Positions 26,438 through 29,400 of a stretch of DNA of 64,000 bases are shown in pieces. Every line of letters begins with the position of its first letter. Within the stretch, counting starts at the first letter, position 1. A model generated the notes under the pieces. It was given only the letters and a program-made list of their open reading frames with translations, made no database searches and had not been told where the DNA came from. The stretch is from Nannobrachium achirus (Eukaryota; Chordata; Actinopteri; Myctophiformes; Myctophidae), in assembly GCA_963921795.1 (NCBI GenBank), contig OY997652.1, positions 20,120,426 through 20,184,425 on the forward strand, written 5' to 3'. A program made the translations under genes and the position numbers.

Positions 26438-29400
26438 CGGGACGAGGAAGAGGCTTTCCCGCTGCTGCCACAAATTTGGCCTCCCACGCTCCTCCTTTAG
26501 TCTTCCACTCCTTGCTGTTGTTCAGAAGACCATCATACATGGGCTGGACTTGTGGATGGAAGCGAGCAAACTCCTGAACAAAAGAGTGAAGGATAACATT
26601 TAGACGGTCTTGAAGGTCTCACTTTGACAGTGTACAAATGGTGCCAAATGGACCCCTTAGCGTCCATACAGACTTCCACTTTGAGAGACACTGGTGTACA
26701 GTATTGTCATGTCTTTACACAAACCTAAAACGGTTGCCAAAATCTGTTTGAACGAGAGACAGCACGGTTGCCTTTTTGTTTCAGTGAAAATGTTAGCTTA
26801 TATCTTTTGCTTAAAACAATAAATAAATAGAAAGCGGGTGTATTTTCAGTTGAAATGAAATAAAGAGCGCACCCAAAAGGTGCTGACTAGAAAATATTAT
26901 GCCAAGACTGCAGAAGCTTCTCTGTAACTGATCATTTGTCATCAACGCTGAGGCGTGCATCTGCCTTTTTCTAAAAAGTAACCCACTTAAAACCAGATCC
27001 GTACCTTGTAGACAAATGTGCAGACAAAGTCAATGAAACCACTAAATAGCTTTGGAAGTTGATTAGCGTAGGCTCTGTCCATCATGGCCTGGGGGTAAAA
27101 TAAAGAAAAAGATTACTTGAGTAGTATATGCTGTAGATGCACACATATAATATACACACACACACACACACACACACACACACACACACACACACACACA
27201 CACACACACACACACACACTGTAAATACACAAACTTACAATAGGTAGCTTTCCCAGTTCTGTTATCTCCATGTCTCCCTGCTCCCAGAACTCTTCTGCTA
27301 AATCCATGGCCAACTGCAAGGGGTGCACGCACGCACGCACGCACGCACACACACACACACACACACACACACACACACACACACACACACACACACACAC
27401 ACACACACACACACACACACACACACACACACACACACACACACACACACACACACACACACACACACACACACGTTAATTCAATGAAAAGGAGCTAATT
27501 TGCATGTATGTTTTGTAATGATCGTCTAGTAACTACAGCTTTCAAATAATTGCATTGGAGTAAAAAGTACAATATTGTATATAAAATATACTACACATGT
27601 AGTGTAGTAGATGTATAGAATATATTGTAGAGATTTTCTTCTCGAGTAAATGTATTTAGTAGTCTCGCGTAGCCAGACAACTATTCCACAATCTCCGAAT
27701 GCTATATAGAGTCTAGAACGGCAGCTCCCGAACGGCGAGTATCGGAAGTTACACAATAGCTCAGACAAAGTCATTCGAGCGGCCTATTCTTGTTATAGGT
27801 GTATAGTTTAAGAAAACGTTTGAAAACATCATGGAGGTAACACCAATAACACCAGAGAAAGACTACCGGTAAATAACGGCCCCAGAAATGTTGAAAGAAG
27901 ACATAACGCTTCCAGTAGGACATGTTATTGTAAGTCGCTTTGAATTAAAAGCGTCTGCTAAATGCCTAAACTGTAAACTGTTACTGCACCAAGGGAGCGG
28001 TTGCGTCACATCCGCTTTATCTCGCAGACTCGCACTCATCGTTTCCATTTCCGTTTGCCAGACTGTATGCCGGGAGCATTTGCCCAAATCGCGGAGGCAA
28101 CAGTCTGGCCTCGCGAGACTATGTATTTAGTTACGGTACTTTCCACCACTGCAAGTCTCACACTTTCATTTGTTTAGAATTAGATTTTGTTGTTTTGGTT
28201 CAGTGATTGTGTGGTCTTTGCTGGTGAACTCTTAAGCCTCATTCAGACCATTCGCGCGTTGTGTGTGTGAGTGCAACGGCTTCAGTATCTTTGCCCCAGT
28301 TGGAAAAATCCAAGTGAAGCGACCTTCCCTCCCTCACGACTTCACCATTCGCGCCTTGAATGTGACGTTACATATTTTTTTCCAACACTGACCAGCGCGA
28401 CCAAAGTGAAGTGATTGTAGCTTCAGGTTTTAACGCAGCATAAGAAGGTAGTGCTCCTCACCTTGCTGTGCAGCTCCCAGGGTTTGGTGAAGGCTGACAA
28501 GTCACATGCCACCATCATCATTGCCCTAAGGGAAATCAAAATGAAAGATTTGTCAGTCTGTGCCCTTCGCTGATAACATAACTTCTAATGACTAATACAT
28601 TACTACTTATGTTCTGAAAACGGGAATGAATTGAACATTGTATTGAATGTTATGGGCTTTGTATAATGTCTTGTGGAGATATAGCCAGAAACATACAGCC
28701 TTTTTTGCATTTACCCAAGCTCATTAATGTTATACTTTAATGCTTGTTTTTGTTGTCTGCAGTAAGTCCATTCAAGGCTGATCCCTAAGACGAATATTTT
28801 AGACCAGGGGTCTTCAACAGTGGTTTCAGAGTTACTACAGGGGGGCCGCCAAATCTTTGTGTGATAGGATCATGTTTTTTACATTAACCCTATTAACATC
28901 CCTATTCTGAGTGGAACATTAGCCAAAAATAGAAGATAGCAGATGAAAAGAATAGCAGATAGCAGATGAGGTGTTGTAAGCTTGTAGATCAGCTATTTTT
29001 GGCAAAGAGGTTTGTAGAGGGAAAAGAATACGGTTCAAGTAGTTAAATGTCTGAAAATACACATTACTCCATGACAGTGCTGTCAAACAAGTCTAAGCTG
29101 TCTAAGAAATCTATGATCATTTTTGATCTGCAACACAATATTATACAATATGTAGTGGGGGTCCCTGTTTCATCTCTCTCTCAGCCAAGGGGTCCCTGGC
29201 CTGAAAACGTTGAAGATGTTGAAAATGTTGGGTGATTTTCACCAACACAATGGTTATCGGTTTTTTATTGTGTTGCTGATGTCTGAGGTGGAACGATAAT
29301 CGCTATTATCGTTTATCATGATAAGAAATACTCACGATAACCGTGAACCTCTGAATGATGTCATATTGTAGTTTAGACAGAATAGAAATAAATTCGTCTA

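Follow-up and report, generated by a model that had tools for sequence, protein, structure and literature searches.

Null alleles of PDE6B blind mammals, and pseudoenzymes that are paired with an active paralogue form a known general class. The glutamine that holds the guanine base in cGMP phosphodiesterases has been exchanged in the laboratory: the available text of PMC3069055, citing Zoraghi 2006, gives an about 60-fold lower cGMP affinity and unaffected cAMP kinetics for PDE5 Q817A, and for PDE9 Q453E it gives a 25-fold higher KM and an approximately halved kcat. The catalytic domains of the PDE6 alpha and beta subunits were enzymatically equivalent in chimeras (PMC6119865, available in part), and alpha could thus carry hydrolysis. 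Birds and reptiles are without PDE6A according to the accessible sections of Lagman et al. 2016 (PMC4906994), which means that a single type of catalytic subunit can suffice for rods.

Here we describe a lanternfish rod PDE6B without the base-gripping glutamine and with a remodelled pocket, a loss absent from every homologue listed. With vertebrate rod PDE6B (Lampris incognitus, P0001; chain B of 6MZB), the gene shares two GAF domains, PDEase_I, the metal ligands, the CaaX box and the ATP5ME neighbor, and a tree nests it in teleost PDE6B; it differs by a catalytic domain only 69.9% identical to that of Lampris and lacks, besides the glutamine, three pocket residues that are otherwise invariant or near-invariant. 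The PDE5A Gln817 and PDE9A Gln453 mutants have lost the same structural glutamine; however, as far as the available text of PMC3069055 goes, these are engineered single changes with measured partial activity, whereas pde6b is natural, carries several pocket changes and is known from sequence. Bird and reptile rods provide a precedent for one catalytic subunit type, although there one gene is gone (PMC4906994, accessible sections), while here both genes remain, one of them with a remodelled active site. As in pseudoenzyme partners, fold and regulatory domains are conserved and the ligand pocket is damaged; in contrast to them, pde6b has an intact metal site and its inactivity is predicted from sequence. 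This gene is unreported in the listed titles and abstracts on lanternfish and PDE6, PDE6B in deep-sea fish or PDE6 pseudoenzymes, and likewise in those on Myctophidae genome assembly and rhodopsin or lanternfish RH2.

pde6b lies on the minus strand of the window, i.e., the whole stretch of 64,000 nucleotides that was analyzed (Table 1). It is an intact orthologue with 23 coding exons and 844 codons plus stop; exons 1–22, from the ATG at 45209 down to 26438, have GT/AG boundaries throughout and consistent phases, and no stop, frameshift or splice defect, the hallmarks of a pseudogene, occurs across the 844 codons. An earlier note on this DNA had described an open frame of about 830 codons that did not look like a decaying pseudogene. 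The open frame and the clean splice sites bear this out, whereas the length fell short, exon 23 extending the frame to 844. On the spliced protein, Pfam finds two GAF stretches and PDEase_I at residues 557–800 (236 bits, cut-off 24.8), and the C terminus is a CaaX prenylation box, CTVC, with the stop directly after. The intron from 44840 to 45050, at LCQ/VEE, splits the N-terminal coding region of pde6b; own-genome matches read through this site in a pde6a-like gene (C17, residues 6–114) and in two pde6c-like genes (C13, 4–159; C18, 4–157), and an intron gain in pde6b is possible.

Table 1. Features of pde6b and its neighbor, in positions of the window
Feature	Position	Strand	Basis
pde6b, whole gene, 23 coding exons	24162..45209	−	Gene model, homologue listing, Pfam
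Exon 1, with start codon; intron at LCQ/VEE follows	45051..45209	−	Gene model
Exons 2 (44839-44528) and 3 (43279-43127), mostly GAF-A	43127..44839	−	Gene model, Pfam
Exons 4–10, end of GAF-A, linker, bulk of GAF-B	36652..42241	−	Gene model
Exons 4–6	42241-42152, 41325-41185, 40616-40542	−	Gene model
Exons 7–10	40267-40203, 39264-39198, 38376-38329, 36801-36652	−	Gene model
Exons 11–13 (34867-34724, 34522-34457, 34005-33859), end of GAF-B, linker, catalytic start	33859..34867	−	Gene model
Exon 14, Tyr557Phe (PDE5 Tyr612); His558 and His562 retained	32426..32533	−	Column comparison
Exon 15, His598, Asp599, His602 and Asn606 retained	31840..31949	−	Column comparison
Exon 16, 12-residue stretch differs from PDE6B KLHGSSILERHH; Glu627 retained	31302..31389	−	Column comparison
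Exon 17, catalytic domain	30289..30389	−	Gene model
Exon 18, catalytic domain	29728..29835	−	Gene model
Exon 19, Ile723Phe and Gln730His (PDE5 Ile768, Gln775); metal-binding Asp719 retained	28462..28525	−	Column comparison
Exon 20, pocket positions Val733Leu and Val737Leu	27239..27313	−	Column comparison
Exon 21, PKLFSGFID instead of PKLQCGFID	27005..27088	−	Gene model, homologue alignment
Codon 772, TTT (Phe), at the PDE5 Gln817 / PDE6C Gln776 position	27044..27046	−	Alignment; residue pair in the available text of PMC11338870
Exon 22, end of catalytic domain (Trp808 retained) and start of C-terminal tail	26438..26573	−	Column comparison
Exon 23, tail AGAPAGGSKGCTVC with CaaX box CTVC, stop	24162..24205	−	Gene model; Lampris PDE6B ends SKTCTVC
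ATP synthase subunit e (ATP5ME) exon in ORF, convergent with pde6b	18478..18726	+	PF05680, 25.0 bits, cut-off 22
Perhaps further ATP5ME exon	~20194-20394		By eye; no Pfam match

By its best hits, its place in the tree and its ATP5ME neighbor, we assign the gene to the rod beta subunit, PDE6B, and what had been called a PDE6-family gene is thereby narrowed to one subunit. Among the best 120 of 1489 matches from a search of 5.8 billion sequences, those named by subunit were rod PDE6 beta, except P0070 (alpha), and the best identity among the listed matches was 72–73%. In a 45-row tree, pde6b falls inside teleost PDE6B, where its group comprises 21 rows, among them Polymixia, Diretmus, cods, Lampris and spiny-rayed fishes; given a terminal branch of 1.06 (median 0.073), the exact place of pde6b is unsure. 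The ATP5ME exon lies downstream of pde6b, convergent with it, and ATP5ME adjoins PDE6B in the human genome as well. We considered whether pde6b and the sequences of Dallia, Esox and Oncorhynchus form one divergent group but rejected this, as the tree sets pde6b apart from them. The salmonid–pike sequences have a long common stem of their own, longest in GAF-B (0.244) and not long in the catalytic domain (0.057), and near-invariant catalytic changes number 11 in Dallia and 10 in Esox. Exon 21 has unusual residues in Dallia and Oncorhynchus PDE6B, yet the glutamine is retained.

Exon 21 of pde6b (84 bp; acceptor ttttacccccag, donor gtacggat) joins exons 20 and 22 without a shift of frame, and the reading PKLFSGFID with a TTT codon, from which the earlier note had started, stands. 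phmmer aligns this exon with rod chains (alpha and beta, 6MZB) and cone chains (6X88, 9CXG), and glutamine is present at the residue-772 position in all four full-length PDE6 chains aligned with pde6b. Where class I phosphodiesterases have their purine-contact glutamine, pde6b hence has phenylalanine. The wider homologue set combined the best 120 of 1489 matches of the protein search with the best 120 of 1195 from a catalytic-region search that was aimed at finding relatives with phenylalanine at this position, giving 161 distinct sequences. Glutamine occupies the position in 161 of 161 listed homologues; some of these sequences are isoforms of one gene, and column counts are therefore not independent. 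The motif had been given as QVGFID; its glutamine is correct, but the spelling PKLQVGFID occurs in only 10 of the 161, PKLQCGFID in 139. Lampris, Diretmus and Genypterus, which are deep- or open-water fishes, are among the listed sequences that keep the glutamine. Two further checks had been proposed, for orthologues with the same phenylalanine and for a different exon 21 with the glutamine. The phenylalanine was found in no other fish among the 161 listed homologues. Nor did the window yield an alternative exon 21 with the glutamine: CARTGYGGNTTYATHGAYTT has no match there, on either strand, with up to three mismatches.

The phenylalanine might also stem from a mistake in assembly or base calling. 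TTTAGT differs at four of six bases from CAGTGT, the spelling of the genome's own pde6a-like gene, a surprising number of changes for a single conserved site, and it could alternatively be written as paired small indels plus one change. Nevertheless, frame and splice sites are clean, three more invariant or near-invariant pocket residues are changed in two other exons, and such changes amount to 29 of 181 columns across the catalytic domain; we consider an error extremely improbable. Exon-by-exon matches within the genome revealed at least four pde6 places, namely C15 (pde6b), C17 (pde6a-like) and C13 and C18 (both pde6c-like). These labels were set by eye from exon sequence, and for the C17 gene the PDE6A score exceeds the PDE6B score by little (461 versus 450 bits). 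The other three catalytic pde6 genes found keep the glutamine, their exon 21 equivalents reading LQCGFID or MQCGFID. A second, glutamine-bearing pde6b was not found by the own-genome exon-by-exon and exon 21 DNA searches, which matched these four places and whose counts are lower bounds; we attributed weaker matches elsewhere to other genes with GAF or PDE domains.

The earlier note was limited to one exon; exons 14 and 19 contain three further changed residues of the base pocket. In pde6b, Phe, Phe, His and Phe stand where PDE5 has Tyr612, Ile768, Gln775 and Gln817 (Y557F, I723F, Q730H, Q772F), i.e., aromatic or bulky side chains replace the guanine-holding glutamine, its glutamine partner and the neighboring isoleucine and tyrosine, and the purine pocket is remodelled. 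According to the available text of PMC6321839, the PDE5 base site model consists of Tyr612, Asp764, Leu765, Ala767, Ile768, Gln775, Ile778, Ala779, Val782, Gln817 and Phe820. At six of these 11 positions (the equivalents of 612, 768, 775, 778, 782 and 817), pde6b departs from the PDE6B consensus, those of 778 and 782 both by Val to Leu. Three of the changed positions coincide with PDE6C Tyr561, Gln734 and Gln776, which appear as inhibitor contacts in simulations in the accessible part of PMC11338870. Among invariant or near-invariant columns, four of eight are changed in the pocket and 25 of 173 in the rest of the catalytic domain (one-sided Fisher p = 0.024), a modest effect in a test chosen after seeing the data; when all columns are taken, the published 11-residue list gives a weaker result (6/11 versus 96/321 for the catalytic domain, p = 0.083). 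Not every change need be damaging, since H621Y brings pde6b to the tyrosine of PDE5.

In contrast to the base pocket, the metal site is kept, as had been supposed: the motifs HNWRH, CHDIDH and CDLSA of the metal-binding His/Asp set are present, and all eight metal or catalytic residues checked (H558, H562, H598, D599, H602, N606, E627, D719) are unchanged, although with so few residues their conservation could be chance. The clamp phenylalanine F775 and the pocket tryptophan W808 are retained as well. Because of its remodelled purine pocket, the catalytic site probably hydrolyzes cGMP very poorly or not at all. Phe at 772, His at the partner position and two more changes would entail a larger loss than the single glutamine mutants, although these mutants keep some activity in the available text on them, and residual cGMP activity of pde6b is therefore possible.

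We give an even chance to the reading that the beta subunit has lost most or all of its own cGMP hydrolysis and persists because it serves assembly, regulation and anchoring, alpha being the catalytic partner. This corresponds to the pseudoenzyme partner that the earlier note had listed as one option. In the simplest model, an alpha–beta heterodimer, alpha would hydrolyze cGMP at the one good catalytic site, while beta would give the dimer contacts, bind the inhibitory gamma and supply the lipid anchor for the membrane. We infer that pde6b is expressed, that its product pairs with alpha and that its activity is lost.

Alternatively, pde6b might be a working cGMP phosphodiesterase, its pocket re-engineered by compensating changes and its kinetics suited to the deep sea. 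The retained metal and catalytic residues, clamp and W808 would fit such an enzyme, several pocket residues have changed jointly, as compensation would need, and PDE9 Q453E keeps about half its kcat (PMC3069055, available text). Phenylalanine, however, is incapable of the hydrogen bonds made by glutamine, and the listed homologues keep the glutamine without exception, those of Lampris, Diretmus and Genypterus included, so that we regard this explanation as distinctly unlikely. A change of substrate to cAMP or another purine, guanine selectivity having gone with the glutamine, appears very improbable. Turnover of cAMP by PDE6 is of little importance in rods, and nothing in the sequence points to another ligand, even though cAMP kinetics were unaffected in PDE5 Q817A (PMC3069055, same text). 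Conceivably, the gene might act solely as a scaffold that binds cGMP through its GAF domains, another option of the earlier note.

Furthermore, constraint differs between the domains. Counted without the tree-shrew P0070, which is named PDE6A, changes at invariant or near-invariant columns amount to 29/181 in the catalytic domain, 2/117 in GAF-B (p = 2.5e-5) and 6/53 in GAF-A; in a first count that included P0070, the catalytic domain had 27/178 and GAF-B 0/112. T169Q is among the altered near-invariant residues of GAF-A; published cGMP-contact residues of GAF-A, with which it could be read, were not found in the literature. At variable GAF-B columns, 27 of 68 are changed, and hence the gene evolves fast throughout. 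With the tree held fixed, the pde6b tip branch is 0.84 in the catalytic domain (median tip 0.043, about 20×), 0.39 in GAF-B (median 0.052, about 7.5×) and 0.32 in GAF-A (median 0.093, about 3.4×).

This raised rate in all domains is what relaxed decay would produce if rods or beta mattered less, for instance with a PDE6 of alpha alone or a cone-type cascade, and pde6b were an intact, drifting relic. The amplification of cone-type parts in the genome, with 13 PDE6H-like last exons, two pde6c-like genes and 14 RH2-like first-exon matches, points the same way. On the other hand, the frame is free of defects over 844 codons, strictly invariant columns are changed in 0 of 83 cases in GAF-B versus 19 of 147 in the catalytic domain, the CaaX box is kept, and the genome has an intact RH1. 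In a neutral simulation, which was simple in that it used substitutions only and started from pde6b's own catalytic stretch, a stop-free frame survived to 80% identity in 10 of 500 runs and to 70% in 1 of 500. We consider relaxed decay the main rival explanation, possible if rather unlikely; decay alone is unlikely to account for pde6b, yet the gene could possibly be a slow relic.

Fast evolution of the whole lineage was rejected as a full account. Over 267 shared catalytic-region columns, identity to tree-shrew PDE6A is 77.9% for the genome's own pde6a-like gene, somewhat under the level of Lampris PDE6B, which is 83.5% identical to marsupial PDE6B, whereas pde6b reaches only 64.8% to the latter. 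Lineage-wide speed thus accounts for only a portion of the divergence. For comparison with the catalytic identity of pde6b to Lampris given above, Gadus has 90.1% and Polymixia 92.2%.

The only PDE6B found has lost the glutamine yet kept GAF-B, the frame and the lipid-anchor signal, and it sets the catalytic role of beta apart from its structural and regulatory ones. As a natural experiment, the gene bears on two questions: whether one catalytic site suffices in rods, and by what means fishes of the deep sea reduce dark noise. A bolder proposal, which we think unlikely, is that PDE6 in lanternfish rods is a one-site enzyme, selection having made beta non-catalytic, with an aromatic-filled cleft and less dark noise, alongside an amplification of PDE6-gamma-type genes. 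Aromatic side chains that fill the cleft would reduce spontaneous cGMP hydrolysis in animals that have to detect single photons.

Several other phototransduction genes of this genome are unusual. Rhodopsin of the lanternfish Stenobrachius leucopsarus is the best listed match of the intact RH1 (C9:8598879-8599913), at 94% identity against 80% for the second; we therefore place the genome among the lanternfishes, probably in another genus. This RH1 has Gln at site 122, a cone-type residue, and His at 119, both also found in S. leucopsarus. The PDE6H-like last exons lie within 61 kb (C3:45798204-45859353) in strictly alternating plus and minus orientation. In one stretch, both visible coding exons are open, the first reading MADAGVAAPADKKAPPKFKQRTTRTFKSKAPKPGQKG, and a second stretch has a partial first exon and a last exon. 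That the last exon is undivided agrees with the loss of an intron in teleost PDE6H given in the accessible sections of Lagman et al. (PMC4906994); the label is otherwise by eye. A tandem array at C6:31695392-31780287 holds the RH2-like first-exon matches, ten of which were read and labeled by eye; their number is above the up to eight RH2 copies given for teleosts in the available text of PMC9627706 (2022). The two pde6c-like genes, at about C13:52712590-52737831 and C18:38964225-38981697, both keep the glutamine; among the teleosts examined in the accessible sections of PMC4906994, only pufferfishes have two PDE6C. Together, the PDE6H-like copies and RH2-like matches suggest a rebuilt phototransduction toolkit.

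Elsewhere in the window, a 115-residue ORF with MSILYHSKWSLLLLLVLLWGCSYSTSLAARTGKRQ at 10636-10983 on the minus strand, for which Pfam gave no match, looks like a small secreted peptide precursor. Finally, GATCTACAAGCT occurs 45 times in the window at one mismatch or less, 15 times as arms of a close hairpin (e.g., at 830-882, 30811-30863, 42768-42820 and 52353-52405), and this repeat is probably a miniature mobile element.
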